This document shows positions 9,510 to 51,601 of a stretch of 64,000 nt of DNA, in pieces. Below the pieces are notes generated by a model, which did not search any database, was not told where the DNA came from, and saw only the letters and a list, made by a program, of their open reading frames with translations. Source of the DNA: Luteolibacter rhizosphaerae (GTDB lineage Bacteria; Verrucomicrobiota; Verrucomicrobiia; Verrucomicrobiales; Akkermansiaceae). Position numbers and translations under genes: made by a program. Within the stretch, counting starts at the first letter, position 1; each line of letters opens with the position of its first letter. Location: the NCBI RefSeq assembly GCF_025950095.1, contig NZ_JAPDDR010000001.1, positions 434,001 to 498,000 on the forward strand, read 5' to 3'.

Positions 9510-12500
9510 GTGCTGTCCCTACGGTCTGGTTTTTTCAGGCCGGTCCCGTTCATTTCCACCTGCCTGAGCGTATGTACGCTGGCTGCCCAGACGCCCGCGC
9601 CGACGCGTGGCTTCGCCGTGGATACATCGGACCGGAGTGAAGTGGTGTCCTTCTATCATGCCATCTACATGGCATCGGAAGGCTACCACAAACGTATCGC
9701 GTGGACGGGGAACTATGCTTCCACCGCAGCCGGTGCCGAAGGAACGGTCTCCGAAGCTTTTAGCGGAGATGTCGAGCGGCGCCTGAATTACTTCCGGGCG
9801 ATGAGCGGTCTTCCCGCCGCGGTGCGCGTGAACACCGGTGGGACGGTGAGGGTCCTCAGCGAAGACGCCCACCAGCCTGCCACGAACACCACGAAGATGG
9901 CAGCCTCCCAGCGCTCGGCGCTGATGATCGCGCGGACCTATCCGGGCAATGGCGGACTGAGCCACAGCCCGGCGCAATCCTGCACGGCGTGGACGAGCGC
10001 CGCATGGAATGCCAACAAGAACGGGAACCTTTCGCTCGGCTTCTTCGGACCCGGGGCGGTGGACGCCTATGTGAAGGAGGATGTGATGGGCACCTCCGCA
10101 TGGAACCTGGATGCCGGCCACCGGCGCTGGCTGTTCCTCCAAGGAGCCACGGATTTTGCGACGGGAGACACGCCCGGGGTTTTCAATGCCAGCGCCAATA
10201 CGGTGCGACCGCCGACCAACGCGATGTATGTCGTGCCGAAGTCGAGCGAGCTCGAGGCGGTGTCGCCGGTATTCGTCAGCTATCCGCCGAAGGGCTACCT
10301 CCCCGCGAAGCTGAACACGCCTTTCTGGTCGCTCACCTATCCGGGGGCCGACTTCTCCGCGGCGACGGTGAGCATGACCGACACGGCTTCGAATCCGGTG
10401 GCGGTTTCGGTCGTGTCGCGGCGCAGCGGCTACGGCGACAACGGAATCGTGTGGCAGGTATCCGCCGGGGCGGCGACGAAAGAGGTGGTATCCGACATCT
10501 CGTGGAACGTGACCGTCTCGAACATCCAGGGTGCCGGTGTGCCGGCGCAGCATAGCTGGACGGTGACGCTGATCGATCCCGAGCGACTGAACCAGAGTCC
10601 CGTGATCAGCGGCGCTTCCAGCCCGATGACTTCCGGAGCGAGCTACAGCGTGAGCGCGGTAAGCGGCGCGGACGAGATTCAGGCGGGACTGGCACTGCGG
10701 AAGAATGCCAACTGGACCGAGGGTGCGGAAGACAGCCCGGCCGCGAAGATCATCGATCGCACGAGCGGGAGTTACCCGCTGCGAGCTACCACCGCGGGCT
10801 ATGTGAAGACGGGAGCGAAGGCATTCCGGCTGACTTTCCCTACGCGCTACGATCCCTTCCTCAACGGAGTGCCGGAGCAGATCATCGAACTGGATCGCGA
10901 CATGATCCCGGGTGTGTCCGGCAAGCTGAACTTCCAGTACCGCCGCGGTCTGATGACGGGGGCCTCGAAGCTGGCGGTGGAAACCTCCACGGACGGGCGA
11001 AACTGGACGCTGGCGGGCAACCTGATCTCCGGTCTCGGTGGCGCAGGTGACTCGCTTTTCCAATCCGCTGCGATCAATCTTCCGGAAGGTCTGCTGCGGG
11101 TCCGCCTGCGCTACTACCTCGCGGATCCGAGTTCCGCGTTGTATGCGCATGAGGACTATCCGAGCCAGCCGACGGGTATCTTCATCGACGATATCTCCAC
11201 CACGAACTGCACGTGGCTCGAGCATTCCGTTACTTTGGCGGGAGCGGGGATAAGTTCCTTCGCCTTCAACTCGAGCACCGCGGGAGTTCCGCTGCTGGCC
11301 GGACAAGAGTGGTGGCTGCGCGCCCGTGCGGTGCTGGGTGGCAAGGCTTTCCCGTGGGGGCCTGCCAAGGTGGTAACCCTGTCGGGTCCTCTGCAGCTCA
11401 GCGGTCCGGTCGTGCCTCCCTTGAGTGGTGCGGACTACAATTTCATCTCCGATCCTTCCGCGGATAGCTACCGCTTGGAAGTGGTCCGGCTGGCAGCGGC
11501 CAGTTGGACGGAGGGGGCGGAGACCAGCCCCGCACCGCAAGTGACGGCGGACATCTCGCCAAGCTACGGCCTTTATAGTAATTTGAAGGGCTATCGCCAA
11601 GGTGGTGCCTTGGCCTTCCGCCTCGGTCTGTCCACGGCGGCGGACGAGGTGGACAGCTTCACCATCGAGCGGCAGATCGTGCCCGGAGCGACCAGCGAGC
11701 TGGAGTTCTGGACGCGGCGCGGCGCGATGAGCAAAACCAACGCGTTGCATGCGGAGGTTTCGACCGACGAGGGTGCGACCTGGACTTCGGTCTTCGCGCT
11801 GCCGGGCTTGCAGAAGGCGGAGAAAAAGGTGCTGCGCCAGGCGGTGTCGCTGGCGCCGTGGGCGGACCGGAGCATCCGGATCCGCTTTGCGGTGAGGAAG
11901 GCGGCGGGGGGGGCGAACCTGAAGTGGAATGCGAAGTCCTCCGGCGTTTGGATCGACGACATCCGGGTGACGGATTCGGCCATGCTGGTTTCGACCCATG
12001 AGAGCGTGGTATCGGGATCCGCGGTCAAGGTGAGATTGAATGCTGCCAGCGTGGGTGAATCGCTGACAGACGGGATGACGCTGCGCTTGCGGATGAGGCC
12101 GGTGACGGGTGCCTCGATGGGTGGCTGGGGACCGGCTCTTATCGTGAATCCCTCGTCTTCGTCGGCAGAACCGGCCTTGCCGGCCGGTTTCGAGGGGTGG
12201 GCTGAATCAAATCACGCGGGGCTCGGCTTGAGCTTCGATGGAGACTCGGATCGTGACGGGATCGCGGACGGGATCGAATATGCGTTCTCATTGGATCCGA
12301 CGATGGCCCAAGCATCTCCGGATGCGTTGGCGGTGGGTGAGGAATGGCTTACGATCTCGCGGCCTTTGCCGGAGGTGAAAGAAGGTATCCGCTATGGCGC
12401 GGAGTGGGCGGATGATCTGACGAGTTGGTCGGATGAGGGGGTGGAGATCGAGATTCTCGATGGCGTGATCCGGGCGAGTGTTCCGAAAGGAGAGAGCAGC

Positions 12501-12533
12501 CGGTTCTTGAGATGGAGGATTGAGGCGGAGTGA
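9510..12533 (+). CDS. large secreted protein with CAP-like domain and tandem beta modules
   Basis: A 1007-residue secreted protein, start GTG at 9510, signal peptide of about 26 residues ending TLAAQ. Residues ~45-240 resemble a divergent CAP/SCP domain: ERRLNYFRAMSGLPAAVRVN, then LSHSPAQSCTAW and an NLDAGHRRWLF block, where the His residues could form the CAP cleft. After it come two copies of a jelly-roll-like module, each opening with WTEGAE(D/T)SP (residues ~401 and ~665) and containing an EVSTDxGxTW-type strand, each closing on a FIDDI or WIDDI strand. The C-terminus has a calcium-loop motif (DGDSDRDGIADGIEYAF) and a final PVC-style beta region. The CAP call is by pattern only. Its substrate is unknown. 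Confidence 0.7.
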   Translation: MLSLRSGFFRPVPFISTCLSVCTLAAQTPAPTRGFAVDTSDRSEVVSFYHAIYMASEGYHKRIAWTGNYASTAAGAEGTVSEAFSGDVERRLNYFRAMSGLPAAVRVNTGGTVRVLSEDAHQPATNTTKMAASQRSALMIARTYPGNGGLSHSPAQSCTAWTSAAWNANKNGNLSLGFFGPGAVDAYVKEDVMGTSAWNLDAGHRRWLFLQGATDFATGDTPGVFNASANTVRPPTNAMYVVPKSSELEAVSPVFVSYPPKGYLPAKLNTPFWSLTYPGADFSAATVSMTDTASNPVAVSVVSRRSGYGDNGIVWQVSAGAATKEVVSDISWNVTVSNIQGAGVPAQHSWTVTLIDPERLNQSPVISGASSPMTSGASYSVSAVSGADEIQAGLALRKNANWTEGAEDSPAAKIIDRTSGSYPLRATTAGYVKTGAKAFRLTFPTRYDPFLNGVPEQIIELDRDMIPGVSGKLNFQYRRGLMTGASKLAVETSTDGRNWTLAGNLISGLGGAGDSLFQSAAINLPEGLLRVRLRYYLADPSSALYAHEDYPSQPTGIFIDDISTTNCTWLEHSVTLAGAGISSFAFNSSTAGVPLLAGQEWWLRARAVLGGKAFPWGPAKVVTLSGPLQLSGPVVPPLSGADYNFISDPSADSYRLEVVRLAAASWTEGAETSPAPQVTADISPSYGLYSNLKGYRQGGALAFRLGLSTAADEVDSFTIERQIVPGATSELEFWTRRGAMSKTNALHAEVSTDEGATWTSVFALPGLQKAEKKVLRQAVSLAPWADRSIRIRFAVRKAAGGANLKWNAKSSGVWIDDIRVTDSAMLVSTHESVVSGSAVKVRLNAASVGESLTDGMTLRLRMRPVTGASMGGWGPALIVNPSSSSAEPALPAGFEGWAESNHAGLGLSFDGDSDRDGIADGIEYAFSLDPTMAQASPDALAVGEEWLTISRPLPEVKEGIRYGAEWADDLTSWSDEGVEIEILDGVIRASVPKGESSRFLRWRIEAE

Positions 12534-12702: not shown

Positions 12703-15700
12703 CTACCGGGCGAGGATCTGCTTCATCACCTTGGCGACATCTTGGGCGGAGTGCTGGCGGAGGAACTCCTCGTGACGACCGGGGACGGTGTGAACTTCGA
12801 TGGGTTGGGTGCTGGTCCAGCCGAGGGTGGGATGACGCGGGATCCAGCCTTCGTCCGCAGCTTTTACCAGAACCAAGCGGCCGACCTTAGGCAAGCGCGG
12901 GACGTGGACGTGAAGCGCTTCCCAGTGGCGGGTGGCGCGGGCTTGGGATGCCGCGTCGAGCAGATCGAGATCGAGGATGCTGCGGATGTCCGGGATGCTA
13001 TCGCCGTCCTTGTTGATCATGCGATCCATGCCTGAGGCGGCGGCACGCTGCTTCATGCGGAGGCGGCGCAAGGCCGTGGCGCGATCGCGGGAAAGGAGGC
13101 TCTTGAGGCGGGACGGCAGGCGGGAAAGGATGCGCCACCAGACCGAGGGGCGGAACCAGTGGCTGCCATCGGGATCCTGATTCGGAGGCGTCGATTCAAG
13201 GAGGACGAGCAGCTCGACCTGATGGTCCGCGCCGACGAGTTGCGCGGCGATCTCCGCGGCCAGATTGCCGCCGAAGCAGAAGCCGGCGATGCGATAAGGG
13301 CCGACCGGTTGCACCGCGCGGATCTTGTCGACATGGCAGCGGGCCATCTCGCGGATGAAGCCGAAGGTGCGGGTGCCCTCGGCGATGCCGTAGGAGGTGG
13401 CGACGCCATCTAACAGACGTGCCGTCTCGCGGTATGGCAGGAGGCCCATGCCGCCATCGACGAGCGTGTGGATCCAGAATAACGGACGAGCACCCTGGCT
13501 CTGGCTGAGGCGGATAGCGCGCGGTTGCACGAGATCGGGCGCGGCATTCTCGCGGATCTGTGCGGCCATGCCAGCCGGAGTGGGGCGATCGAAGAGCCAA
13601 TCGAGCGGGACGACGATGCCGAGACGGCGGGAAGCTTCCGAGACGAGCCGGGCCGCAAGAATCGAGTGGCCGCCCATGGCGAAGAAGTCGTCATCCGGCC
13701 CGACACCGCGGCAGTCGAGGACATCGCCCCAGATATCGGCGAGTTCGTCCTCCAAGGGACTGCCCTTGCCGCGGGGTGGTTCGGTGGCGGCTTGCGGAAG
13801 TTCGCGGGCGGCCAAGGCCTTGCGGTCGATCTTACCACTGGAGGTGAGCGGCATGCGATCGATCGCGAGCAGGCGCGAAGGAACCATGTAGTCCGGCAGG
13901 CGCTCGCGGAGATGGGCGGCGAGTTCCGTGGAGTCGAGTGCGGTGGAGATCGGGCGAAACCACGCGACAAGCTTCTGGTCCGGGACGGTGAGAACCGCGG
14001 CCGCTTCCGCCACGCCGAGGTGGGAGAGCAGCGCGGAATCAATCTCGCCGAGTTCGACGCGGAAGCCGCGGATCTTCACCTGGCCATCGGAGCGGCCGAG
14101 ACACTCCACGGTGCCATCGGGATTCCAGCGTGCGAGATCCCCGGTGCGGTAAAGCCGAGAGCCGAGAGCGGAGATTTTGGGTTTCGAGATGAAACGCTCC
14201 GCGGTGAGTTCGGGGCGCTGCCAATAGCCATCGGCCAGACCGGCACCGGAAATGAGAAGTTCGCCGGGCACGCCGGGTGGCATAGGGGTGCCGTCCTCCG
14301 CAGTGATATGGATGCCGGTATTGGCTATCGGGTGGCCGATGCTGATGCGGTCCGGATTTTCGGGAAGCTTCCAGATGGTGGACCAGACGGTGGTTTCGGT
14401 GGGGCCGTACAGGTTCCATGCCTCGCGACCCAGCTTGACCAAGCGCTTGGCCAGGGGGAGGTCCATGGCTTCCCCACCGCAGAGGATTTTGAGGTCGGGT
14501 GAACCCTGCCAGCCCGCGTCCATGAGCATCTTCCACGTGGCGGGAGTGGCCTGCATCACGTCCGGCTTGGTCTCCGTGATGCGGGCGATGAGGGCGGCGG
14601 GATCGCGCGAGGTCTTACCCGGTACGAGATCCACCGTACCTCCTGCGACGAGGGGCAGGAAGATCTCCAATGCGGAGATGTCGAAGGAAACGGTGGTGAT
14701 CGCGAGCAGGGACTGGCCTTCCTTGAAGCCGGGCTGCTCCGCCATGGAGAGAAGGAAATTCGCGAGGGCACCATGCGAGACGACCACGCCCTTCGGTTTC
14801 CCGGTGGAGCCGGAAGTGTAGATGATGTAGGCGGCATCCCGCGGCTGCGGCAGCATCCGGCGGGTGGTGGCCTTCTGGGTGGTCATACCGGGGTCGAAGA
14901 CCATGTGGTGGGTGCCATCCGGCAGGCGCTCCCGGAGACCGGCGGAGACCAGCACATGCAGCGGTGCCTGATCCTCGAGGACAAGGGCGAGACGTTCCGG
15001 AGGGTTTGCGGCATCCAGGGGCACGTAGGCGGCACCGGCCTTCCATACGGCGAGCAATGCCACGGGGAGCATCAGGTTCCGCTCTAACAGGAGGGCGACC
15101 CGGTCGCCCGGGTTCACGCCGCGCTCCGCCATGCTGCCGGCTAGGGCGGCGGCTTTTTGATCAAGCTCCGTGTAGGTGAGCGACTGATCCCCGCAACGGA
15201 TGGCGACGCGTTCGCGCAGCCGCGAGGTGGTGCCCGCGATCAAGGCGGGAGCCGTCTTGGTGGGGAAGCTGGGGCGGAGCGGGCCTTGGCCGGAGAGCAG
15301 CAGCTTGCGGCGGTCCCGATCGGAGAGGCTATCGATGTGGGCGACCTTGCGCTCGGGATCGCGGCAGATTTCCTCCAGCGTGGCGAGGTAGCGATCGAGC
15401 ATGAGCGCGGCGGTCTCGTGGCGGAAGAGATCGCTGCGATACTCCAGCACCGCCTGGTGGCGATCCGAGAGCACGAACATCATCAGGCTGAGGTCGAACT
15501 GGACCGCACCGCGATGGGCGAGGAAAGGCCGGCAGCGCAGGCCGCCGTGCCATGTCTCGCTCAAGGGCAGCTCTTGGTGATCGAACATCACCTGGGCGAG
15601 CGGCGAACGGTCGCGGGCGCGCTCCGGCCGGACGGCCTCGATGATCCTCTCGAAGGGGGCATCCTGACCCGCCTGCATGTCGAAGGAGGCTTCCCGCACG

Positions 15701-18543
15701 CGGTCTAACAGAGCGGTGAAGCTTTCCTCCGGATCCAGCGGCATGCGGAAGGGCAGGGTATTGACCAAGGTGCCGACCAGATCACCCGCTGCGGCGTGGT
15801 TGCGATTGGCCACGGGCACCGCGACGACCGGGTCGTCATCGCTACCGTGGCGGCGCAGCATCAGGAGGAAAGCCGCGAGCTGGATCATGAAGGGCGTCGA
15901 GCGCCGGGTCTTGGCCAGCTCCGCGATCCGCAGGACGAGGGCGGCAGGGACGGTGCGCTCGACGGCGCCGCCGGTGGAGGACGGCTTGGCCGGGCGCGGG
16001 AAATCGGTGGCGAGCTCCATGACCCCGGGGTGACCGGCGAGTCGCTCCTTCCAGTAGGCGATGCGGGCATTGGCCGCGCCGCCATCGATCCATGAGCGAT
16101 GCCATGCCGCGTAGTCGAGGTAGTCGGGCCCGTGCGGGGGCGGGGTGGGTTGCTTGCCCTGGGCGTAGGCGGAGTAACAGGCGGCGAGATCCCGGACGAG
16201 AACGCGCACCGACCAACCATCCGCGGCGATGTGATGGGCGCAGAGGGCGAAGACGTGGCGATCCTTGCCGGACTCGACCAGCAAGGCGCGGATCGGCGGA
16301 CTGTTAACGAGATCGAAGGGACGCAGCGCGAAGGTTTTCAGGCTGCCGTCCATGGCTTCCTTTCCGAAGGCCTTGGCATGCTCAATGGGAGGTGGCGTTG
16401 AGTCATCGATCCAGACGACGGGCTGACCATCCACGGAGCGATGCCGGCTGCGCAGGATACTGTGATGCTGAAGGACGCGCTGGTAGGCTTGCTCCAGCGC
16501 CATGAGATCGAGCGGGCCTGACATCTCCAAGGCTCCGAAGACGTGATAGGCGGCACTCTGGGGCTCCAGCTCATGCAGGAACCACATGCGCTCCTGCGAA
16601 TGGGTAAGCAGCCCGGCATCCCGACCGGAGCCAGGTAGGATCTCCGGCGGTGGCGAGGCTGCCGTAGCCTTGCTCTCCACCGCAGCCGCCAGGTGGGCGA
16701 AAGAGGGTGAGGAGAAGAGCTCGGCATGGCTGAGCTCGACACCGGTGGCGGCGCGGAGCAATGCGCCGAGGCGGGTCGCCTCGATCGAGCTCATGCCGAA
16801 GGCGATCAGATCGTCTTCCGCGCGGGCACCATCGCGGCCGGAGGCATCGCGAACGGCATCCAGCACGCACTCGAGGATGGGGCCGGTGGGGAGGCGAGGA
16901 ATCGAGGACGCGGCGTTCTCGTCGAAGATCAAGGCGAGCTTGCCGGCAGCGAGGGCCTCGCGCGTGGCGCCGCGGCGGATCTTACCGCTGGTGGTGCGGG
17001 GCAGGGTGCCGCTGCGGACGAGAACGATGCGGTGGATGGAGATCTCCACCAGATCCGCAACACGGCGGCGGATGGCGGAGCAGAGGATAGCGGACTTCTC
17101 CTGCGAGAGGCGCGAGCACTCGAGGACGAGGGCGACGCTTTCCCCGAGTGCGGATTCATCGGCCACGGCCGCGGCGGCGGTGACTTCCGGAAAGGCGATG
17201 AGCGCGGACTCGATGTCTTCCGGGGCGACGTTCGTGCCATCAAGGATGATGAGGTCCTTGATCCGCCCGACAACATGAAGCTCGTTGTTCTCAAGATAGC
17301 CACGGTCGCCGGTGTGAAGCTCGCCATCCGGCCCGAAGGTGGAGGCATTCAGCTCGGGGCGATTCCAGTATCCCGGGGAGACGCTGGCACCCTTCACGCG
17401 GATCTCACCAATTTGGCCGGGGGGCAAGGTGGCCCCTGTCTCGGGATCGGCGATGCGGAGCGAGAGTCCATCGAGCACCGGCCCGCAGGAGACATGGCGG
17501 CCCGCGGTCGGGTGATTCGAGATGTGCTGGAGCTGCCCGGTGCGACAGGCGGTGACGGTGAGGGTGGCCTCTGCCAGACCGTAGCCGGGAAGGAAGACCT
17601 CGGGCCGGAATCCGTAGGGGGCGAAGCGGCTGGTGAAGCGCTGGAGGGTCTCCACCTGGATGCGCTCGGCTCCGCAAGGGGCGGCTTTCCAGCAAGAGAG
17701 GTCGATGCCTTCCAGCTCCTCATCGCGGATCGAGCGGAGGCACATCTCGAAAGCGAAATTCGGGCCGCCGCTGAATTCGGCGCGGTAGCGGCTGATGGCG
17801 CGGAGCCAGCGGACCGGGCGCTGGATGAAGTGATCCGGCGTGAAGAAGGTGAGGGAGAAGCCGACCTCGATGGCGAAGAGGATCTTCAGCACCAGCCCCA
17901 TGTCGTGGTAAGGGGGAAGCCAGCTCAGACCGTGCTTCAGGTGGAGGGGCTCGATATTCGCGACTAGCGGCGTGAGATGGTGGCGCAGGTTGCGGTGATG
18001 GATCATCACCCCCTTCGGGTCCGCGGTGGAGCCGGAGGTGTATTGCAGCAGGCAGGGCTGGTGGCTTTCGCGGGGCGGGCCCTCCAGCGGATTGTGATCC
18101 AAGGCGAGCTCCGCGGTATCAAGGACGCGGAGGTCGGGCAGCGGATTCCGAGGGATCTCGCCGAGTGCGAGCTTGGCCCCGGAATCGCGGAGGATGGCAT
18201 CGAGGCGCTGGCGGTGGCGATTGCCGCGCGGCGGGTAGGCGGGGACGGCGATGGCACCGGCATACCAGCAGGCGAAGAGCCCGGTGATGAAACCCAAGCC
18301 CGGTGGCTCCATCAGCAGGACCGGCTTGCCGATAGCACCTTGCTTGATGAGGCCGTTAGCGGCGGCACGGGCGTCGCGAGCGAGTTGTGCGAAAGTCAGT
18401 GTGAGTTCACGCTCCTCGGCATCGGGGAGGAAACGGTAGGCGAGCTCGTCGGCCTGGTGAAGCGCCCGATGGTCCAGTACGCCGGTCAGCGCGGAGCCGA
18501 GCGGGATGGCTGGTAGGTCCAAGGGGGCGACGGGAGGGGTCAT
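12703..18543 (-). CDS. single-gene lipopeptide synthetase: FAAL-ACP-C-A-PCP-TE
   Basis: A nonribosomal peptide synthetase of about 1946 residues. Positions here count from an alternative ATG at 18579; the ATG at 18543 (MTPPVAPLD) is equally plausible. Order: fatty acyl-AMP ligase (1-~560, core LQYTSGSTADPKGVMIHH), acyl carrier (GMSSIEATRL, Ser ~598), condensation domain (active HHIAADG at ~782), adenylation domain (YTSGSTGKPKG, NLYGPTETT, YRTGDLARW), peptidyl carrier (GGHSI, Ser ~1639) and thioesterase (GFCFGG, Cys ~1768; His in VPGRHEEFL). Aligning the A domain by eye to GrsA gives pocket residues D-I-L-Q-L-G-L-V-W-K, close to the glycine code I remember. The predicted product is therefore an N-acylglycine or a derivative. 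No phosphopantetheinyl transferase, MbtH or exporter is nearby. Confidence 0.9.
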   Translation of the reverse strand: MTPPVAPLDLPAIPLGSALTGVLDHRALHQADELAYRFLPDAEERELTLTFAQLARDARAAANGLIKQGAIGKPVLLMEPPGLGFITGLFACWYAGAIAVPAYPPRGNRHRQRLDAILRDSGAKLALGEIPRNPLPDLRVLDTAELALDHNPLEGPPRESHQPCLLQYTSGSTADPKGVMIHHRNLRHHLTPLVANIEPLHLKHGLSWLPPYHDMGLVLKILFAIEVGFSLTFFTPDHFIQRPVRWLRAISRYRAEFSGGPNFAFEMCLRSIRDEELEGIDLSCWKAAPCGAERIQVETLQRFTSRFAPYGFRPEVFLPGYGLAEATLTVTACRTGQLQHISNHPTAGRHVSCGPVLDGLSLRIADPETGATLPPGQIGEIRVKGASVSPGYWNRPELNASTFGPDGELHTGDRGYLENNELHVVGRIKDLIILDGTNVAPEDIESALIAFPEVTAAAAVADESALGESVALVLECSRLSQEKSAILCSAIRRRVADLVEISIHRIVLVRSGTLPRTTSGKIRRGATREALAAGKLALIFDENAASSIPRLPTGPILECVLDAVRDASGRDGARAEDDLIAFGMSSIEATRLGALLRAATGVELSHAELFSSPSFAHLAAAVESKATAASPPPEILPGSGRDAGLLTHSQERMWFLHELEPQSAAYHVFGALEMSGPLDLMALEQAYQRVLQHHSILRSRHRSVDGQPVVWIDDSTPPPIEHAKAFGKEAMDGSLKTFALRPFDLVNSPPIRALLVESGKDRHVFALCAHHIAADGWSVRVLVRDLAACYSAYAQGKQPTPPPHGPDYLDYAAWHRSWIDGGAANARIAYWKERLAGHPGVMELATDFPRPAKPSSTGGAVERTVPAALVLRIAELAKTRRSTPFMIQLAAFLLMLRRHGSDDDPVVAVPVANRNHAAAGDLVGTLVNTLPFRMPLDPEESFTALLDRVREASFDMQAGQDAPFERIIEAVRPERARDRSPLAQVMFDHQELPLSETWHGGLRCRPFLAHRGAVQFDLSLMMFVLSDRHQAVLEYRSDLFRHETAALMLDRYLATLEEICRDPERKVAHIDSLSDRDRRKLLLSGQGPLRPSFPTKTAPALIAGTTSRLRERVAIRCGDQSLTYTELDQKAAALAGSMAERGVNPGDRVALLLERNLMLPVALLAVWKAGAAYVPLDAANPPERLALVLEDQAPLHVLVSAGLRERLPDGTHHMVFDPGMTTQKATTRRMLPQPRDAAYIIYTSGSTGKPKGVVVSHGALANFLLSMAEQPGFKEGQSLLAITTVSFDISALEIFLPLVAGGTVDLVPGKTSRDPAALIARITETKPDVMQATPATWKMLMDAGWQGSPDLKILCGGEAMDLPLAKRLVKLGREAWNLYGPTETTVWSTIWKLPENPDRISIGHPIANTGIHITAEDGTPMPPGVPGELLISGAGLADGYWQRPELTAERFISKPKISALGSRLYRTGDLARWNPDGTVECLGRSDGQVKIRGFRVELGEIDSALLSHLGVAEAAAVLTVPDQKLVAWFRPISTALDSTELAAHLRERLPDYMVPSRLLAIDRMPLTSSGKIDRKALAARELPQAATEPPRGKGSPLEDELADIWGDVLDCRGVGPDDDFFAMGGHSILAARLVSEASRRLGIVVPLDWLFDRPTPAGMAAQIRENAAPDLVQPRAIRLSQSQGARPLFWIHTLVDGGMGLLPYRETARLLDGVATSYGIAEGTRTFGFIREMARCHVDKIRAVQPVGPYRIAGFCFGGNLAAEIAAQLVGADHQVELLVLLESTPPNQDPDGSHWFRPSVWWRILSRLPSRLKSLLSRDRATALRRLRMKQRAAASGMDRMINKDGDSIPDIRSILDLDLLDAASQARATRHWEALHVHVPRLPKVGRLVLVKAADEGWIPRHPTLGWTSTQPIEVHTVPGRHEEFLRQHSAQDVAKVMKQILAR

Positions 18544-18579
18544 CGGAGGGGGGAGTCCGTGGTGCCGGTGCCAAACCAT

Positions 18580-25039: not shown

Positions 25040-25181
25040 CCCGATTCCCTATTGAGAGACGGCGGAATCGTGCAAAAGTGATCTTAACCCAAGTCCTGTC
25101 CTCCCCGATATGACTCGCCGCTTTTTGGTGCGGTATGTCGATATCGTCCTTTTGCGGAGAACCGTGCCTTTGCCCAAACCC

Positions 25182-28043
25182 ATGAAACCCTCCAAGCCTG
25201 CCGCTTACGGCATTCTTTGCGCCCTCGGGGTATCGGTCGCCGCGTATCTGCTGTGGCCTGCCAAGCCGCAATCGCTAGCCGGGATCGATGCGGCGGGAGA
25301 GAAGCTTTCCTCCCCGCTGAGCGGGCTTCCCTCTGAGGACTCGTCCGGTTCTGGTCCGGTCTTGTCCCAAGGGGAAGCCGCGAAGCATGTGCCGGATCGC
25401 GAACTCTTCGGCAGCGCTTGGAACACTTCGCCGCGCGAGACGCTCGCCGCTTTCGCCGCATGGGCGCAGCGTTACCGTGAGGCGAAGCCGGAAGCGCGGT
25501 CTGCGCTGCGGGAGGAGGGAATCGCGCTGGCAAAGGTCCGTCGCGAGGTGATGTCGGATCTCATCAGGAAAGATCCGCGGGAGGCGATCGCCAACACGCT
25601 GCCGGTGATCGTGCGCCAGCAGCTGCCGCAGGCCGTGCAGGATCTGTTGGAAGAGCGGGTGTCGGATCGCGGCGATATCTATCGCGTGATGGGCATCGCG
25701 GGCCCGGGAGAGAAAAAGGTGATCCCGACGGTAGAGCAAGCCCATGTCGGCAGCCGGGTTTTCCAAGCGCATCGTTATGGTGACCGGGCACTGACCCCCT
25801 CGCTGAAGGATGTCTCGGTGCACGGGATCACTCTCGATGGGCACCTGGCGATTCTCGACAGTCCGGTGCGGAAGATGGAAGAGGGCGAGACTGCCGCCGA
25901 GACGACCGAGGAATGCGTGGTGACCGGAGGCGTGACGGTGGTGCCGGAAGATCCGGCGACCCGGGAGACTCCGCCGGCGGAGGTGACGACGATGCTGGTG
26001 GGCAACCATGGTTACGAGCTGTGCTGCCCCTTCTGCGCGGAAGATTTCGAAACGCGGATGGAGCGCTTGGAGCGTCAGCACATGTCCGCGCTACAGGCGG
26101 TGGATGCGATTGCTGGCGATGCGGATACGCCGCGATCGCTTTCCTCCAGCGGGGTGAATGGCAGTGCCGACTATCCGGGCAAGCCGCCGAGCTGGCTGAC
26201 GCAGGGGACGAACACGATGATCGTCATGCGGGTCGATTTCCCGGATCATCCTTACTGCAACTTCAGCGAGCAGTATCTCACCGATCAGGTGAACTCGGTC
26301 GGCTGGATGATCAACCGCTTCTCCCACGGGAAATCGCAGCTTGCTGCGCCCACGGTAACGCCGGTGCTGCGGATGCCGAGAAACCGAGGGAGCTACGACA
26401 ACGGTGCCTACTGGGGCGACATCTTGAACGACGCGCGCAACGCGGCCTTCGCGCTGGGCTACAATCCCGACAGCTTCTCCTGCCGGACGATCGTGCACGA
26501 TGGATTCGTCAGCGGCGGTGCAGCCGGGTGGGGCGGTGGCGGTGCGATCTGGTGCAACGGCAACGCCTCCGATCGCCTGCTGGTGCATGAATACGGGCAC
26601 GTCTTCTGGTTGCCTCACGCCAATTCATGGCAGGCGAACGACGGCAACCCGCTTTCCGGCGGACGCTGGCATGTGGAGTATGGGGATGATAGCGACCCGA
26701 TGGGGAATGCCTGGGGAACCAGCGGCTTCAGCGACTACAATGCCTACTACAAGAATCTGCTCGGCTGGCTGCCCGATAGCGCGGTGGTGCCGGTGACGCA
26801 CTCGGGCACTTACCGGATCAACCAGTTCGACGGCTGGGGCGATTGGACCAAGCCGGTGGCGCTGAAGATCACGCGGGATAACGACTTGGACCTGTGGGTG
26901 ATGTTTCGCGGGGACGGAGTTCCGCAGGGCAACTACAATACGGGGGCTTACATCGTGGGCGTGAATGGCGAGCGCTTCGGGGATTCCCATGTGCTGGATT
27001 TCAATAGCCAGAACGACGGAACCTGGAACGCACCGCTGGCCCAAGGGCAGACCTGGACGGATGCGGCCTCCGGCATCTCGATCACCACCGCGGGGCGGAT
27101 GATGACCGACTGGCCACACCACATGTACGTGAAGGTGAACTTCGGTCCGGGCTACGTGCATGGCTACCGGGCGCTGGTGAACGGCGGGATCTACGGTCTG
27201 CGGAACAAGAGCTTCAACCAGTATCTCACCTCGCCGAACTTGAACGAAGGTGCCGAGCCCGTGGTGGCGGCCTACAGCGGAGCGACCAACCAGCAGTGGG
27301 TCGCCCAGCGCAACAGTGACGGCACTTACAGCCTGAAGCGGAACGGCTCGACCAATCTCTTTCTCGACGTGATGAACAACGGCGGGGGCAACTACACCGA
27401 GATCATCCAGTGGACCTGGAACGGTGGGGATGCCCAGCGCTGGGATGTGCTGAACTCCTGGGACGGCTATCTAAAGCTGCGGCACAAGGGCACCAACCAA
27501 CTGCTCTGTGCGGACACCGCGGGCGGCAACTATGGCGATGTGATCCAGTACGACGATTTCTCCGGCGACGAGCAGAAGTGGGAGCCTACCCTGATCGGCT
27601 TGAACAACGGGAACTACCGGCTGGTGCCGCGGCATGCGCAGACCCTGGGGCTGTCTTTACGAGCCCGAAGCAGTGCCTCTGGCACGCAGCTCGAGCAGCA
27701 GTTCTGGGCGGCGGGTGAATGGCAGCGCTGGACGATGCTGAACTTGGGAGGCGGGCAATTCCGGATCCATCCCCAAGGCAAACCCGAGGTTACGCTCGGG
27801 ATCCAAGGCGGCAGCACCGCGGAGGGGGCCAAGGCAGTGCTGGAGCCCTATACGGGTGCGAACTCGCAGAAGTTCACCTTCGTCTCCACGGGCATGGGCT
27901 TCGTGCGGCTGACGCCGGTGCACGCGCCGGCGATGTGTCTCGACGTCTCCGGCGGCAGTTCGTCGGCAGGCACGGACATCCAGCAGTGGACCTATCTCGG
28001 CGGAAACAACCAACAATGGCGCTTCATCGACTCCGACCTCTGA
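25182..28043 (+). CDS. secreted gametolysin-like (M11) metalloprotease with ricin-type lectin tail
   Basis: A 953-residue protein. The ATG at 25182 (MKPSKPAAYGILCALGVSVAAYLLW) begins a signal or anchor segment; the frame extends to 25110 but adds a basic stretch before it. Residues ~30-330 are a pro-region. The zinc protease core has HEYGHVFWLPH (first His ~469; pattern HExxHxxxxxH) and downstream EYGDDSDPMGNAWG, which matches the EYGDxxDxMG Met-turn of M11-like enzymes. From ~660 to the end there are two or more beta-trefoil units with QxW-type signatures (NQQWVAQ, AQRWDVL, EQKWEP, NQQWRF), expected to bind carbohydrate. A pair CCPFC occurs in the pro-region. The next gene starts 5 bases after its stop, and a paralogue lies 2.8 kb downstream. 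Confidence 0.88.
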   Translation: MKPSKPAAYGILCALGVSVAAYLLWPAKPQSLAGIDAAGEKLSSPLSGLPSEDSSGSGPVLSQGEAAKHVPDRELFGSAWNTSPRETLAAFAAWAQRYREAKPEARSALREEGIALAKVRREVMSDLIRKDPREAIANTLPVIVRQQLPQAVQDLLEERVSDRGDIYRVMGIAGPGEKKVIPTVEQAHVGSRVFQAHRYGDRALTPSLKDVSVHGITLDGHLAILDSPVRKMEEGETAAETTEECVVTGGVTVVPEDPATRETPPAEVTTMLVGNHGYELCCPFCAEDFETRMERLERQHMSALQAVDAIAGDADTPRSLSSSGVNGSADYPGKPPSWLTQGTNTMIVMRVDFPDHPYCNFSEQYLTDQVNSVGWMINRFSHGKSQLAAPTVTPVLRMPRNRGSYDNGAYWGDILNDARNAAFALGYNPDSFSCRTIVHDGFVSGGAAGWGGGGAIWCNGNASDRLLVHEYGHVFWLPHANSWQANDGNPLSGGRWHVEYGDDSDPMGNAWGTSGFSDYNAYYKNLLGWLPDSAVVPVTHSGTYRINQFDGWGDWTKPVALKITRDNDLDLWVMFRGDGVPQGNYNTGAYIVGVNGERFGDSHVLDFNSQNDGTWNAPLAQGQTWTDAASGISITTAGRMMTDWPHHMYVKVNFGPGYVHGYRALVNGGIYGLRNKSFNQYLTSPNLNEGAEPVVAAYSGATNQQWVAQRNSDGTYSLKRNGSTNLFLDVMNNGGGNYTEIIQWTWNGGDAQRWDVLNSWDGYLKLRHKGTNQLLCADTAGGNYGDVIQYDDFSGDEQKWEPTLIGLNNGNYRLVPRHAQTLGLSLRARSSASGTQLEQQFWAAGEWQRWTMLNLGGGQFRIHPQGKPEVTLGIQGGSTAEGAKAVLEPYTGANSQKFTFVSTGMGFVRLTPVHAPAMCLDVSGGSSSAGTDIQQWTYLGGNNQQWRFIDSDL

Positions 28044-45423: not shown

Positions 45424-48400
45424 TCAGTGCCGTTTGTCCATCTTGATCTGACCGAAGTCCTGCCGGTGTTTGAACTTGTCGGCGGTGACCCGGCAGCCGA
45501 GTTCGGGGCTGTAGGCACCATCCGCTCCCAAGAGGATCCGGACCTCCGGCTCCCATAGGGTCTCCGGAGAAATCCAGCGCAGGCCGCTGGAGGAAAAGCT
45601 CACCGAGGAGGGCAGGCCATTGGGGAGCAGGAAGATGGGGGTGCCGGCCTCGTCGCAATCGAAGCGTTCCAGCACCACACCGCTGGCATCGGCAATCAAG
45701 GTTGTATGGCGCTGCTTGCCCTCCCAGTCCTTGATGTGCTTGCCGTTGAGATTTTCGTGGGGATCGCCCCAGTGCTGGACCTTTTGTTTGCCATTCAGAA
45801 TTTCATGGGGATCACCCCAGTGATGTAGTCCCGACTGGGCGCCGCTCACACGCCAGCCGATCGGGCAGGTGCAGATCCGCGGGCCGCCTGAGGCCGCGGC
45901 GCTGACCGGGTAGAGTGTTCCGCCGCCTCCGATCACCGCGTAGGGGACCCCGCCGCGGTTCACGAAGCTCTTGCTCGCGGTGAAGGTGCCGCTGCCATCC
46001 GCTTCCAGTTCCTGGATGCAGGTGTCACCGTCGTAGACGAATTTCATGCCTTTGCCGGTCTGGGGATTCCGTCCGGTACGGCGGCCAATCGCATCGTATT
46101 CGTAGCTCAGGATTCCGGTGCCGGTGCCTGCATCGCTGAATGAGATGAGCTCGTAGCCGGAATTGCAGCTGATCTGGCAGGTAGCTCCGCCCTTCTGGAT
46201 GGAGCTCAGGTTGCCATTGTCATCCCATGTGAGCGAACCGCCGGGCCATGCGCTGTACTGGTGCATCTGCAAGTCCCCCGGCGGGAGGGTGTCATTCTGC
46301 GTGTAGCTACCGGGGTTCGACCCGCCGGTGGCGGAGATGCGGCGGCCTTCGAGATCGAGCGTGTAGCTCACGCTGCTTTCCAGCAAGGCGGGTGCTCCAG
46401 CGGCTTCGCGGCGGCGGGTCTCGCAGCCGGTCATGCGACCGAGATGGTCGTAGCTGAAGGTCTTCGAACGACCCGGTGGCTGTTGAGGCGCGGGGGAGAA
46501 TACGGTGTCTTCCCGCGATGTCGATTGGTCCGGGTTGCGGCGGGTGGTCGTTTGCGAGAGAAGCATGCCGCTGCCATTCGATACCGTGGTGCGCACGCAG
46601 GCATCGAAGGAGGAGTCCGGGGCACCGGGATGCGGGACCTCGCCATCGGCTCGATAGTCGAAGCTCGTTGTCACGCCATTCGCTTGCGTGATGCTCAGGA
46701 CACGGGCACCGGCATAGGTGAACTGCACCAGCGGGGGTGATGAAGGCGTGCCGCTGGCATCGAGCGCCGCGATGGAAAGCAGTTGGCCGAGAGCGTTGCG
46801 GGACTCGCTGAACTGCTGGCCATCCGGATAGATGATGCTGGAGCGACCGCGGTGAGAGAAGGTCCGGGTGATGGTCCGGCCATCCGCCGTCTCAGCGATC
46901 GGATTGTCGCAGGAGTCGTAACTGAAGCTTACCAGCGAGCTGCCTTGCTCCGCGCTGACACAGCGGCTCATCCCGTCGTGGCTGAAGAAACGGTCGGCGG
47001 AGGGGATCACCGGTGATGGCTCGTTCGTCCATTCTTGTTTGATCACCCGCTGCATCAAGTCGCAGGTCGGGGTGCACACGGTGCCATCCGGACCGCGAGT
47101 GGCGGCGAGCGCTCCCACGCTATTGTAGTCGAGGCTTTCGAAGGTGCCGTCCGGGTGGTTGCAGCGGATCAGGCGGCCGCAGGCATCGCGCAGGAAGCCC
47201 GTCGAATAGCCGCGTGAATCGGTGCGGCTGACCAAGCCACCACAGCGGCTAAAGCTGCTGGAGATCACTTCGGCGAGTCCGTCGCCATCCGCATCCGCGG
47301 AAACCCGGACGCTGAAGGGGGAGGCGGGTGTGCCGCCATCGTAGGCGTAGAAGGTCGTGCGACCGGCGGCATCGGTATGGCTCACGCAGCGGTCCAGCGA
47401 ATCGAAGGCCTGTGAGGAGGTGTTTCCGGAGCCATCGGTCGTTTCGATGCAACGGTTCAGGGCGTCATACTCCTGCGTGAGGCCGAAGGTCTCGCTACCC
47501 GGAGTGCCAGCCACGAAGAAGTGAGTGGTCGTGCCGCAGAGCGTGGTGTTGCCATTGCGATCGCGAGTGTAGCTGCGGGTGGAGCTTCCATCCGAGTGCG
47601 TAGCAACGCGACCGGCGCTATCGTAGGTGCAGCTCAGCAGAAGGTCCCCATTGGTGGTGACCGAGAGCGGCAGGCCTGCGGGCGAGCGATCGACGAGCGT
47701 AGTTTCCCGCTGCGGTGCTCCGGGCTGTCCCGGGCTGAAGCGTTCAATCGTGCAGAGATCGTCCTCGCGCTCGACATCGAGGAAAGGATTCAGGACACGG
47801 AGCATGATACCGCCGCGTTGCTGCACCACGTGGGCGGCTTCGTGCGCGGCCATCCGGCCCACGTTCGCACCCGCTCCCTTGGTGTTGATCGCATGCTTGC
47901 TACTGGAACTCGGATTGATGGTGCTGCGGGAGAGCAGGATGTTTCCCGCCGAGCCTGGCGCATCCAGCAGTTCCCCATAGACCGAGCACATCACCGTGCC
48001 GTCGTTGGCGTAGCCGAACTCGGTAACATTGCCCATGGCGTCCGTGACCGAACTGCAACGCTGGAAGCCGTCGTAGGTGAAGCTCGTTTGCGGACTGGTG
48101 CCAGCCGACGAGAGGGTGGTGATGTGGAGCGGGCATCCCGCGGCGTTATAGTCGAACTCGGTGGTGACGGAAGACAGGGTGCCGAGCCCGCCTTGGATAT
48201 AGCGGTGAAGCAGGCCGCGCTCATCGTAGCGGAAGTCATAGGCGAGATCGGTCGCTTGCGCGCGGCAGGCGGCGGGAGTGCTGATGCGGACGCACTGGCC
48301 CGCGGCATCGTAGGCGAAATCCTGAACCGCGAAGTTCGAGATGCCCAGCAGGTCGGGATCTGTCGAAGTCGAACCATCGATTGGGCGCTCTTCATCCGCG

Positions 48401-51400
48401 GTGCGCACGCGCCGGCCTCGGCTGTCGTGAACGAAGAAGGTAGAGTAGGTAGGATTAACCGCATCGAGCGATCCGTCCGGCCCGCGGTTCTCGACATCGC
48501 ATCGGACCGGGAGGCCGCCAGCGTCCACGGTGAGATTCATCGAGATGCGGTTCGGCATGCCGGAGCTCTGGACCTGCACGCACAGGTGGAGAGGATTGTA
48601 GTCGAAGAGCCAGTCGTTCCCGCGCGGATCGACGACGCGGGTGATGCGGCCCTGCAGATCACGATCGAAGGCGGTAACGAGTTTGAGGCCGTCGCCCGAC
48701 TCGCTCTTGTCCCGGATCACCTTGCTGGCGAAGCGGGTGGCCGGATCATATTCGATCTCGTCCCGGAACGAGGATTCCGCACCGTTCAAGGTGATGCAGG
48801 CGGTCGTTTGGCCGAGGGTATTGTATTCCCACTCCGCTCCGGTGCCGGGTAGCGGCGAGGTGAAGCTGACGCAGTTACCATGATCATCGTAGCTCCATGT
48901 GGAGGTCTGCCCGTGGGCATTCGTCATCGAGCTGCGGAAGTTCGAGCACAGCCATGCTTTCTGCTTCTGGCCCAGTTTCGCGGAAACCTTCTCGCCGAAG
49001 CTCTGGCCCTGCGTCTGTCTGGGCGTAGTCACGTTCATCGAGATCCGTGCCCAACCTTCACCGAAGCCACCCGAGGCGGAGCGGGCGGAACCGGCGGCGT
49101 GCAGCCCCGCGTTGACCTTCTCCCCGAAGGTGCTGCCTTGGGTTTGCTTCGGGGTGGTCACGTTCATTGAGATCCGTGCCCAGCCCTCGCCGAAGCTGGT
49201 GAGGGCGGCGACTTCCCAGAGATCGGGCAGCATGTCGTTGTCGGAGTCCAGATCACCACGGATGCCGATGGCTCCGGGCGCGTCGGAAAGATAGCTGCTG
49301 CCAAAGCCGGGCAAGTAGCTCATGCGCACGGTGCGCTTCTCGCCGCCGCTGGACACCATGGTGGCCTCGCGGGGATTTCCACGCTCGCGCACCGGGCAGC
49401 CCTTGCGGAAGTCCCGGTCGTAGGTGATGAAGTCCATGCTGCCGTCCGGGTAAGTCACCCGCGTGCAGAGGCCGTCCAAATTGTAAGCGAAGTCGGTTTG
49501 GAAGTAATCGGGATCGCTGGCGCGGAGCTTGCCGGTCGGCAGATTGGAACTTGAAGTCACCGCTTGCCCGGGCGTGGAAAAGCCGGTGTGGATGCGGCTG
49601 CGGGTCATGCGATGCAATTTGTTAAAGGCGCGGATGACCACGCGGCCCAGTTCATCGTTTTCCGTCATCTGGTAACCTCCGCCCGGCAGCATTTCGAAGC
49701 TGGAGACCATCACTTCCCCCAAGCCTCCGACGCGGTTGCGGTCCTGCGTTGAGCAGGTGTCATAGGAAACATCGAGCGGATCGGTGACCGGGGAGTAAGT
49801 GAAGCCAGCTAGCAGACGTCCCGCGCCATCGGTCACGCTCAGGAGATTTCCATTGAGGCGGGGATCGGGTGATCCCGAGCTATAGCTGTAGCTGGTCGGA
49901 CCCGCCACGGGAGCTTGGCCGGGAACGAAAGGGCAGGAGACATTCTGAAGGAGTTCGCCCGAGGCATCGTAGCTGAAGCTCACCTTCGACACCGTAGTCC
50001 CGCCGACGACGCAGGAGAGTTCCTCGATCACCCGGTGGGTGGATGCCCAAACCGGAACAATTTGGCGTCCGAAGGAATCGGCCACGCTGGAGAGCAGGCC
50101 TTGGGGATCATAGGTGCAGGTGAGCGAGAGGCCGTTGCGATCCGTGATGCTGGAGATCTTCCCCTGTTGAAGCGAGCGATCAAAAGGGAGGAATGTCCAG
50201 ATGCCCTTGTCCTCGAAGGTGAGGATGAAGGTGTTCCCCTCGAAGCGGCCCTCGCGGAATATGCCGTCGCAGCGGAATGTCCCGTCCGCTTGGCGGTGGA
50301 AGACATCGGCGCGGCCGCCGCCATCGTGGATTACCACGCGCGAGGCTGCAGGGCCCGCTTGAGCGGGGATGGTCTCCACCCGGATGTTGTAGGAGAAATC
50401 CCAGCCGGTGCCGTGACCGGAGCTGACCGGCTTCTTGGAGCGGTAAGTACGCGTCCACTTCAGCGGTGGCCCGGCGGGACAGGGAAGGGAAAGATCTACG
50501 GTGCCGAAGCTCACCTCGCCCGGTAGGGCGCTGCGCGGCGGCATGGTCCTGCCCACGTTTGCTCCAGCACCCTTGGTATTGATCGCGTGGTTGTTCACAA
50601 GCGGTCCTGGCGAGAGGCGAAGGTCCGTCTTGGCTTCGAAAAGAGGATTCTCTCCCTTGCTGCCCTGTTCCTTGTGCAGCGGGTTCGTGCCCGAGAGCCC
50701 TTTATCTTTGTAAAGAGGGTTTACCTGGCTCTTCGCTCCACCCTCGAACAAGGGATTATCGCCCGAGAGCCCGCTGGCTTCGTAGAGAGGATTCGAGACC
50801 ACACCTTCATCCGAGCTGCTCTCCCAGGGAGAATAGCTTTCCTCGGCCTTCTTGTTGAACTTGCGGGCCGTGGACGAGCCGCCCTTCTTTACCACGATAC
50901 CCACGCCCGGAATCGGATTGCTCGATTCCAGAATCACCGGTGCGGCGGGTGGTAGCGAGGCGGGCGCATCGGGTGCGAGGCCGGTGGAGGTCACGGCAAT
51001 CGCTTGGTTCAACTCCACGAGCGTGATGCCAGAGCCATCTTGGATGCGGGCGGCAATGACATTGGATCCCAGGGCGAAGGCTCCGGACACCAAGGCTCTC
51101 CACTCGCCATTCCCCAGCGCCTCGAGTGGAATGAGCAAGGGCGCTTGGCCTTCGATCTCCAGGACCAGGAAGCTTGCCGGCGGGATCAACTGCCCCATGA
51201 TCCGCAGATCACCGCCCACCGAAGTGAGGACGGGGAGGGTGATGCCGAATACTTCCGTCTGCGGTTGAAGAATCCTGTAGAAGGCGCGGGTCCTCGTGGG
51301 CTCGGTATCCAGCCAAGCTCCCTCCGCACCGCTGGCCTCGACCATGGCCACCTGCTCCCAGAGCGGAGCGGTGAGCTCGGCGGAACGCTCGATCCGGTAG

Positions 51401-51537
51401 CGCACGCCGCTCTCCGCCGGCCAAGTGAGGCGGACCTGCTTACCCGGCAGGCCCGATGAGAACTGGAGAAGGGGCGGAGTCACTTCCGCAAGGAGCGACG
51501 CGGGCAGCAGGAGAGCCGCCAAGGCGATGGGCTTCAT
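45424..51537 (-). CDS. large secreted RHS/YD-repeat protein with duplicated inserted motifs
   Basis: About 2037 residues from the ATG at 51537 (MKPIALAALLLPASLLAEV signal peptide; an earlier ATG is at 51555). Residues ~25-220 are beta-domains, then a DUF6531-like start (VNNHAINTKG, then VDLSLPCPAGPPLKWTRTYRS) leads into many YD repeats (ITDRNGLSLTCTYD, YDSAGRVATHSDG, YDALNRCIETTDGSGN and others). The shell is interrupted by several repeats: a 12-residue NPL unit four and a half times, HAINTKGAGANVGR twice, FGEGWARISMNVTTP twice and HWGDPHE(I/N)LNGK twice. The second HAINTKG copy runs into HEAAHVVQQRGG, an HExxH of DUF4157 style. The usual RHS-core end motif (YDPxxGRFxxxDP) is absent and no toxin domain is recognised at the C-terminus. 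The function is unknown; an exported filament-like shell is the family guess. Confidence 0.85.
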   Translation of the reverse strand: MKPIALAALLLPASLLAEVTPPLLQFSSGLPGKQVRLTWPAESGVRYRIERSAELTAPLWEQVAMVEASGAEGAWLDTEPTRTRAFYRILQPQTEVFGITLPVLTSVGGDLRIMGQLIPPASFLVLEIEGQAPLLIPLEALGNGEWRALVSGAFALGSNVIAARIQDGSGITLVELNQAIAVTSTGLAPDAPASLPPAAPVILESSNPIPGVGIVVKKGGSSTARKFNKKAEESYSPWESSSDEGVVSNPLYEASGLSGDNPLFEGGAKSQVNPLYKDKGLSGTNPLHKEQGSKGENPLFEAKTDLRLSPGPLVNNHAINTKGAGANVGRTMPPRSALPGEVSFGTVDLSLPCPAGPPLKWTRTYRSKKPVSSGHGTGWDFSYNIRVETIPAQAGPAASRVVIHDGGGRADVFHRQADGTFRCDGIFREGRFEGNTFILTFEDKGIWTFLPFDRSLQQGKISSITDRNGLSLTCTYDPQGLLSSVADSFGRQIVPVWASTHRVIEELSCVVGGTTVSKVSFSYDASGELLQNVSCPFVPGQAPVAGPTSYSYSSGSPDPRLNGNLLSVTDGAGRLLAGFTYSPVTDPLDVSYDTCSTQDRNRVGGLGEVMVSSFEMLPGGGYQMTENDELGRVVIRAFNKLHRMTRSRIHTGFSTPGQAVTSSSNLPTGKLRASDPDYFQTDFAYNLDGLCTRVTYPDGSMDFITYDRDFRKGCPVRERGNPREATMVSSGGEKRTVRMSYLPGFGSSYLSDAPGAIGIRGDLDSDNDMLPDLWEVAALTSFGEGWARISMNVTTPKQTQGSTFGEKVNAGLHAAGSARSASGGFGEGWARISMNVTTPRQTQGQSFGEKVSAKLGQKQKAWLCSNFRSSMTNAHGQTSTWSYDDHGNCVSFTSPLPGTGAEWEYNTLGQTTACITLNGAESSFRDEIEYDPATRFASKVIRDKSESGDGLKLVTAFDRDLQGRITRVVDPRGNDWLFDYNPLHLCVQVQSSGMPNRISMNLTVDAGGLPVRCDVENRGPDGSLDAVNPTYSTFFVHDSRGRRVRTADEERPIDGSTSTDPDLLGISNFAVQDFAYDAAGQCVRISTPAACRAQATDLAYDFRYDERGLLHRYIQGGLGTLSSVTTEFDYNAAGCPLHITTLSSAGTSPQTSFTYDGFQRCSSVTDAMGNVTEFGYANDGTVMCSVYGELLDAPGSAGNILLSRSTINPSSSSKHAINTKGAGANVGRMAAHEAAHVVQQRGGIMLRVLNPFLDVEREDDLCTIERFSPGQPGAPQRETTLVDRSPAGLPLSVTTNGDLLLSCTYDSAGRVATHSDGSSTRSYTRDRNGNTTLCGTTTHFFVAGTPGSETFGLTQEYDALNRCIETTDGSGNTSSQAFDSLDRCVSHTDAAGRTTFYAYDGGTPASPFSVRVSADADGDGLAEVISSSFSRCGGLVSRTDSRGYSTGFLRDACGRLIRCNHPDGTFESLDYNSVGALAATRGPDGTVCTPTCDLMQRVIKQEWTNEPSPVIPSADRFFSHDGMSRCVSAEQGSSLVSFSYDSCDNPIAETADGRTITRTFSHRGRSSIIYPDGQQFSESRNALGQLLSIAALDASGTPSSPPLVQFTYAGARVLSITQANGVTTSFDYRADGEVPHPGAPDSSFDACVRTTVSNGSGMLLSQTTTRRNPDQSTSREDTVFSPAPQQPPGRSKTFSYDHLGRMTGCETRRREAAGAPALLESSVSYTLDLEGRRISATGGSNPGSYTQNDTLPPGDLQMHQYSAWPGGSLTWDDNGNLSSIQKGGATCQISCNSGYELISFSDAGTGTGILSYEYDAIGRRTGRNPQTGKGMKFVYDGDTCIQELEADGSGTFTASKSFVNRGGVPYAVIGGGGTLYPVSAAASGGPRICTCPIGWRVSGAQSGLHHWGDPHEILNGKQKVQHWGDPHENLNGKHIKDWEGKQRHTTLIADASGVVLERFDCDEAGTPIFLLPNGLPSSVSFSSSGLRWISPETLWEPEVRILLGADGAYSPELGCRVTADKFKHRQDFGQIKMDKRH
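45739..45822 (-). repeat. tandem HWGDPHE(I/N)LNGK motif in the RHS gene
   Basis: Two 12-codon copies at 45739-45774 and 45787-45822, 12 bases apart. The DNA copies differ mostly at silent positions, while the peptide differs only at Ile/Asn, so the peptide is being kept. Confidence 0.8.
47854..47895 (-). repeat. HAINTKGAGANVGR motif, second copy, joined to HExxH segment
   Basis: A 14-codon copy of the motif at 50548-50589, identical in peptide though silent bases differ. It is followed on the minus strand by MAAHEAAHVVQQRGGIML (47800-47853), which has an HExxH and the HVVQQ of DUF4157-like domains. Confidence 0.75.
48979..49194 (-). repeat. duplicated FGEGWARISMNVTTP-QTQG-FGEKV segment in the RHS gene
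   Basis: Copies at 48979-49065 and 49108-49194, each 29 codons (FGEGWARISMNVTTP then (R/K)QTQG(Q/S)(S/T)FGEKV(S/N)A), separated by 14 codons. A related RISMNLTVDAGG occurs again nearer the RHS core. Confidence 0.8.
50548..50589 (-). repeat. HAINTKGAGANVGR motif, first copy
   Basis: The 14-codon peptide precedes TMPPRSALPGEVSFG, just before the RHS opening domain. See the second copy at 47854-47895. Confidence 0.75.
50629..50793 (-). repeat. 12-residue NPL(Y/F/H) repeat, four and a half copies
   Basis: A 55-codon stretch made of units NPLYEASGLSGD, NPLFEGGAKSQV, NPLYKDKGLSGT, NPLHKEQGSKGE and a partial NPLFEAK. The spacing is exactly 36 bases. The unit pattern NPL-aromatic-charged recurs in a region before the RHS core. 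Confidence 0.85.
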
Positions 51538-51601
51538 GGCTAAGGGAGGGAACAAGGGTTGGGAGACCGGAGCCCCGCCGCGCCCGGCGACGGGGCACGA
51601 A

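Follow-up and report, generated by a model that had tools for sequence, protein, structure and literature searches.

The locus considered here raises the question of whether one gene can hold an entire lipopeptide pathway, from the activation of a fatty acid to the release of N-acylglycine, as the initial annotation of this DNA had proposed. The window, that is the whole stretch of 64,000 nucleotides that was analysed (G000:C1:434001-498000), comes from a genome of 6.23 Mb, and the gene in question encodes a synthetase of the lipo-NRPS kind. A route to an acyl amino acid that is complete in one gene would be testable in a single expression experiment and, to our knowledge, few metabolites have been characterised from the Verrucomicrobiota. 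Among the titles and abstract beginnings of the open-licence PMC literature, we found nothing on this gene or on NRPS-made N-acylglycine in Haloferula.

Gene and domain organisation

The gene occupies positions 12703-18543 of the minus strand and encodes 1946 aa followed by a stop codon, as delimited by ORF calling and by its orthologues; the uninterrupted open reading frame (12703-18579) extends beyond the ATG at 18543 to another at 18579, a possible alternative upstream start that would give a protein of 1958 aa. Pfam matches to Condensation, AMP-binding_C, Thioesterase and, in two stretches each, AMP-binding and PP-binding lie above their respective cut-offs and, together with the motifs, bear out the six domains in one chain that the initial annotation had described. 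The order read off the sequence is FAAL-ACP-C-A-PCP-TE, with the catalytic motifs intact, and as judged from these features the protein is a complete one-protein, one-module lipo-NRPS.

Distribution and conservation

Orthologues, collected by a protein search of 38 genomes, are present at 50-78% identity in 10 of the 17 other genomes of the genus, which answers in the affirmative the search of related genomes that had been suggested for this gene. Eight of the ten are encoded in one frame; the copy of G010 is split over two frames and that of G004 over two contig ends. As the architecture is kept at this level of identity in 10 other genomes, with eight one-frame copies, it goes far beyond chance, and the Nei-Gojobori dN/dS values of three pairs (0.16/1.21, 0.18/1.21 and 0.08/0.72, that is 0.13, 0.15 and 0.12) indicate that the synthetase is under purifying selection. 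No orthologue at that level was found in the 7 remaining genomes of the genus, in 6 genomes of other genera of the family or in 14 other genomes of the order, and the weaker matches in genomes lacking an orthologue are other NRPSs (30-39% identity where listed).

Across the phylum, the TE profile exceeded 400 bits in only four of 387 genomes, all of the same genus, and the next scores were 145 and 130 bits; the genomes concerned, G157 and G046, were considered as sources of one-module relatives and rejected, their loci (L078 and L079) lying within PKS/NRPS lines. Nor did the 6 plasmid loci examined, out of 30 listed matches and 997 further records, yield one-module relatives, each match being in a CDS longer than one module.

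Distant relatives of the synthetase were found at three loci (L040, L041 and L042) of two Verrucomicrobiota MAGs, the first two in the same MAG. L040 encodes FAAL-ACP-C-A in one frame and the remainder of the A domain, the PCP and the TE in a second; L041 carries part of a C domain followed by A-PCP-TE, as seen by eye and by query match, and L042 has ACP-C-A-PCP, preceded by the last part of a FAAL (by eye) and followed by the first part of a TE. Behind the distant one-module relative of L040 an ABC-transporter gene lies on the same strand (L040:8918-10441, with its first ATG at 8918 and the TE frame ending at 8765), which hints at export there. The synthetase copies that are split between two frames in MAG contigs, L026 and L040, may reflect assembly error or decay.

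Genomic context

The gene had also been described as standing alone. Flanking ORFs were clustered for 12 stretches from 11 genomes, most of them reaching about 7 kb either side and some less, and 17 stretches were searched for 11 other genes of the window (E 1e-15). Within the flanks covered, no partner pathway gene was co-conserved with the synthetase, in agreement with that description. Only a divergent PSD1/DUF1501 pair recurs widely beside it, PSD1 being found near the synthetase in 6 of the 10 other loci (within 0.7 kb in five, about 5 kb away in L021), and neighbours beyond this pair are common only to close pairs of loci. PSD1 is present in all 18 genomes of the genus and, in those without the synthetase, DUF1501 adjoins PSD1 in 7/7 stretches cut at PSD1. 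PSD1 and DUF1501, being also present in genomes of the genus without the synthetase, were rejected as pathway genes, and because the pair persists there we regard it as a core neighbour and not as a partner.

Other genes of the window include an ORF of 1007 aa convergent with the synthetase (9510-12533, plus strand), which has no Pfam match at 0.001, a protein of 977 aa in which several stretches are of the ricin-B lectin type (25110-28043, plus strand) and a 2043-aa RHS-repeat protein with DUF6531 (45424-51555, minus strand), in which whole phrases repeated within the chain and a HEAAHVVQQRG stretch were seen by eye.

The source genome carries a second NRPS locus (L032, G000:C4:445000-464900) at about 449-458 kb, the TE of which has Ser (L043), and match pairs like it were seen in several genomes of the genus. 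Its presence here and in several relatives would be compatible with the synthetase being one arm of a larger product, its N-acylglycine elongated or joined in trans with that locus; however, the synthetase chain ends in a TE of its own, the two loci are on different contigs, and G014 and G016 possess the synthetase with no match pair like G000:C4, and we consider such a product very improbable.

Fatty acid activation and condensation

The FAAL domain (residues 15-545; 16909-18501, minus strand) was delimited by Pfam and by matches to solved structures and family models. Among the family models, this N-terminal ligase scores 338-230 bits with families named as FAALs, 285 bits with PRK07768, which is named as a CoA ligase, and 169 bits with the next CoA-ligase family. 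Among solved structures, the top matches are 7r7g (354) and 3kxw (294), both with PKS/NRPS names and both presumably FAALs, followed by FadD23, FadD32, 3pbk and FadD28 entries (268-184 bits), compared with 224 for entries named as acyl-CoA synthases and 128 for a 4-coumarate ligase. By these scores the ligase is nearer to FAALs than to CoA ligases, PRK07768 excepted, and is classed with the former. The stretch from YGLAEAT on, which we take to be the place of the FAAL-specific insertion, comprises 51 aa in the window synthetase and 43-51 aa across the 11 copies; the corresponding stretches of 7r7g and 3kxw are longer and align to it with gaps, and the insertion of the synthetase seems short. 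FAAL function may nevertheless be retained, as PMC8460268 reports that other elements contribute more strongly than the insertion to the rejection of CoA; an ACP is fused directly behind. The starter unit of the synthetase is predicted to be a fatty acyl group.

This ACP domain (residues 560-630; 16654-16866, minus strand; Pfam) carries Ser586 (16786-16788), a serine present in 11/11 copies. Activation of the carrier domains is possible in the source genome, which encodes AcpS and a second protein of the PPTase superfamily; no MbtH protein was found in this one genome. The condensation domain follows (residues 645-1082; 15298-16611, minus strand; Pfam), with an HHxxxDG motif at residues 770-776 that is kept in 11/11 genus copies. 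Its nearest solved relatives are Txo1 (262 bits), Txo2 (261 bits) and 5u89 (247 bits), all of which we take to be elongation modules, compared with 130 bits for AB3403, 125 for PvdL and 80 for the surfactin synthetase entry 8f7h, and the type of the C domain therefore gives no sign of lipo-initiation.

Adenylation domain and amino acid substrate

The adenylation domain (residues 1109-1571; 13831-15219, minus strand; Pfam and pocket alignment) has a pocket formed by D1288, I1289, L1292, Q1331, L1354, G1356, L1378, V1386, W1387 and K1571, read directly from the minus strand, that is D I L Q L G L V W K. The same letters had been obtained in the initial annotation, and they were recovered on re-reading, with positions assigned via what we take to be the A4, A5 and A10 motifs, compared with solved A domains and checked against them. 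The pocket is conserved among the genus copies: D, I, L, G, W and K (235, 236, 239, 301, 331 and 517) are invariant in the 11 copies, Q is found in 10/10 copies that include that stretch, and the variable sites are 299 (L in ten, F in one), 322 (L in nine, M in two) and 330 (V in nine, I in two). The pocket code for glycine is DILQLGLIWK; a text search of the open-licence PMC literature with this code and five variants gave no match.

A search of PDB sequences with the A4-A5 core returned 4zxh/AB3403 (125.7 bits) and 5u89 (114.5 bits), then 8www (91 bits) and others below 60; the aligned pockets read D-I-L-Q-L-G-V-V-W in AB3403 and D-I-L-Q-L-G-L-I-W in 5u89, which is presumably the glycine module of DhbF. 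The whole A domain scores 430 bits against 5u89, the top score for a single domain, the LgrA rows above it being sums of two domains. In PMC5376624, 4ZXI is reported to hold bound glycine and AMP, and the A domain of that system to prefer glycine among 20 amino acids. As the A4-A5 core is closest to the glycine-binding AB3403 and to 5u89, glycine as substrate is well supported, which strengthens the original reading of the pocket, and the A domain is predicted to activate this amino acid. Pocket codes are no proof of specificity and sites 299, 322 and 330 are slightly variable between orthologues, so that Ala or Ser, leading to a different N-acyl amino acid, might be the true substrate; with a core nearest to AB3403 and 5u89, and bulky pocket residues that leave little space beyond glycine, we regard this as unlikely. 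The PCP domain that would receive the glycine (residues 1600-1662; 13558-13746, minus strand; Pfam) carries Ser1627 (13663-13665), present in 11/11 copies.

Thioesterase and release

The chain ends in a type I thioesterase domain (residues 1674-1946; 12706-13524, minus strand), delimited by Pfam, a predicted model and structure matches. Its match to Thioesterase (PF00975) scores 50.1 bits for a cut-off of 26.4 and covers only positions 40-107 of the 226 of the profile; the nucleophile, His and acid of an alpha/beta-hydrolase TE are all present. The nucleophile is Cys1756 (GFCFGG; 13276-13278, minus strand), a Cys in 11/11 genus copies and also in L040, L041 and L042, and the histidine is His1924 (12772-12774, minus strand), likewise kept in 11/11. 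At position I, which follows strand beta 6 and usually holds the catalytic Asp, the alignment has Glu1783 (13195-13197, minus strand) and a Glu in 11/11 genus copies, compared with Asp in the distant relatives L040 and L041; a second candidate, Asp1897 (12853-12855, minus strand), lies at position II behind strand beta 7 and is Asp in 10/11, and either Glu1783 or Asp1897 may be the catalytic acid. Four basic residues that lie between strands beta 6 and beta 7 (R153, R154, K158 and R160, in the numbering of the TE alignment) do not vary over 11 rows.

The TE profile search placed NocB, a Ser TE, first (90 bits) and AB3403 second (81 bits). Foldseek gave 4zxh (AB3403) as the first match of the predicted model (pLDDT 77, low over residues 113-144), and the Z-scores of this model against the TEs of NocB, human FAS, AB3403 and EntF are tied (19.5-20.1). 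Because NocB, human FAS and AB3403 are tied, the modelled fold would identify a type I TE and nothing finer, and AB3403, second to NocB in the profile ranking as well, was rejected as a special relative.

The idea that a Cys TE is a striking rarity was also rejected: 17 Cys and 9 Ser were counted among 26 readable non-orthologous TE loci of the phylum (1 unreadable and 5 orthologous rows left out, the acid residue unreadable in 14 of the 26), in a sample biased towards best matches and found in part with a profile built from Cys TEs. In PMC11298585, Cys is described as the less common TE nucleophile, the TEs of ObiF and SulM combine Cys with an Asp moved to position II and close rings, and the TE of AB3403, called uncharacterised, pairs Cys with an Asp in the standard position. 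Since Cys is common in the TEs of the phylum and the known Cys TEs are chemically varied, Cys points to no single chemistry, and hydrolysis cannot be assumed for a TE that has Cys as nucleophile and Glu where Asp is usual, when the Cys TEs of ObiF and SulM close rings. Alternatively, and as a tentative possibility, the TE could hold the N-acylglycine thioester on Cys1756 and transfer it to an acceptor with an amine, alcohol or thiol group, so that N-acylglycyl-X is formed. The Cys shared by the 11 genus copies and L040, L041 and L042 and the invariant R153, R154, K158 and R160 are consistent with such a transfer, as is the Cys-TE operon of A. baumannii, credited in PMC5376624 with a compound of an acyl chain, Gly and Cys-Gly; against it, Cys is common in the phylum (17/26 loci of the biased sample), no gene that would supply an acceptor accompanies the synthetase in the flanks, and AB3403 is called uncharacterised in PMC11298585. 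Capture of the thioester by the Cys(Glu) TE, followed either by transfer to a cellular acceptor or by closure to a 2-alkyl-oxazolone, seems to us rather doubtful; if true, a single gene would provide the genus with a lipid of wide occurrence, either a signal or a membrane component.

Proposed pathway

The best explanation as a whole is a one-protein lipo-NRPS with release by water as N-acylglycine, to which we attach a probability of roughly 0.55. The FAAL would convert a fatty acid to fatty acyl-AMP and load it onto the fused ACP, the A domain would activate glycine and load it onto the PCP, and the C domain would join the two as N-acylglycyl-S-PCP; the chain would then move to Cys1756 of the TE, from which water would, in the simplest case, release it as N-acylglycine. 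We are confident of the assembly up to N-acylglycyl-PCP, and the synthetase very probably builds an N-acylglycyl thioester; the amide bond and the release step are predicted, release above all. Free N-acylglycine, as the simplest released product, is put forward as a hypothesis with the TE as its weak point, and we would give about even odds to its being the main one. From the one-gene N-acylglycine pathway first proposed, the complete single module and its glycine are retained, and the release of a free product is the part called into question, by the Cys TE and by the larger conjugate reported for A. baumannii.

Comparison with known systems

The entry 5u89, listed as 'Amino acid adenylation domain protein', has the same glycine-type pocket letters as the synthetase; it is presumably part of a siderophore synthetase, and differs in having no FAAL. 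A single stretch aligns residues 15-1665 of the synthetase to positions 7-1707 of the NCBIfam profile NF004282 (PRK05691), which we take to represent PvdL-type synthetases starting FAAL-ACP-C-A-PCP; this profile of 4334 positions describes a multimodular line, and the score of 1105 is far below its cut-off of 4090. The TEs of ObiF and SulM resemble that of the synthetase in their Cys nucleophile and are reported to form a beta-lactone or beta-lactam with Asp at position II; in 10/11 copies of the synthetase Asp1897 occupies what is likely position II, yet all 11 have Glu1783 at position I. Glycine offers no side-chain nucleophile for a ring closure of the ObiF/SulM type. With a conserved Cys TE, in common with the solved, chemically uncharacterised AB3403, the synthetase would be a small system in which to study how Cys TEs act on a last residue whose side chain cannot form a ring. 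The glycine lipids of Bacteroides belong to the class of acylated glycine products too, but are made by a GlsB N-acyltransferase route with no NRPS, according to PMC11631085.

The A. baumannii operon A1S_0112-A1S_0118/0119 is credited in PMC5376624 with acinetin 505, a larger conjugate than a free acylglycine. Like the synthetase, it provides a FAAL-like ligase, an ACP and then C-A-PCP-TE (PMC5376624 and PMC11298585), and AB3403 (PDB 4zxh/4zxi), the orthologue of A1S_0115, has a glycine-binding A domain with a near-identical pocket and a TE with a Cys nucleophile. The two differ in that A. baumannii has separate genes, an acyl-CoA dehydrogenase and further genes, whereas the synthetase is one fused chain with partnerless flanks; in their C domains, that of the synthetase scoring 130 bits with AB3403 and 262 with Txo1; and at the acid place of the TE, which is Glu in the synthetase and Asp in AB3403. 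The separate ligase, dehydrogenase, ACP and NRPS genes of the acinetin operon are not seen as one operon here, and the synthetase, which shares the working plan of that operon, is neither a simple fused copy nor an operon member. It is a fused one-gene variant of the A. baumannii logic, and not a new kind of system.
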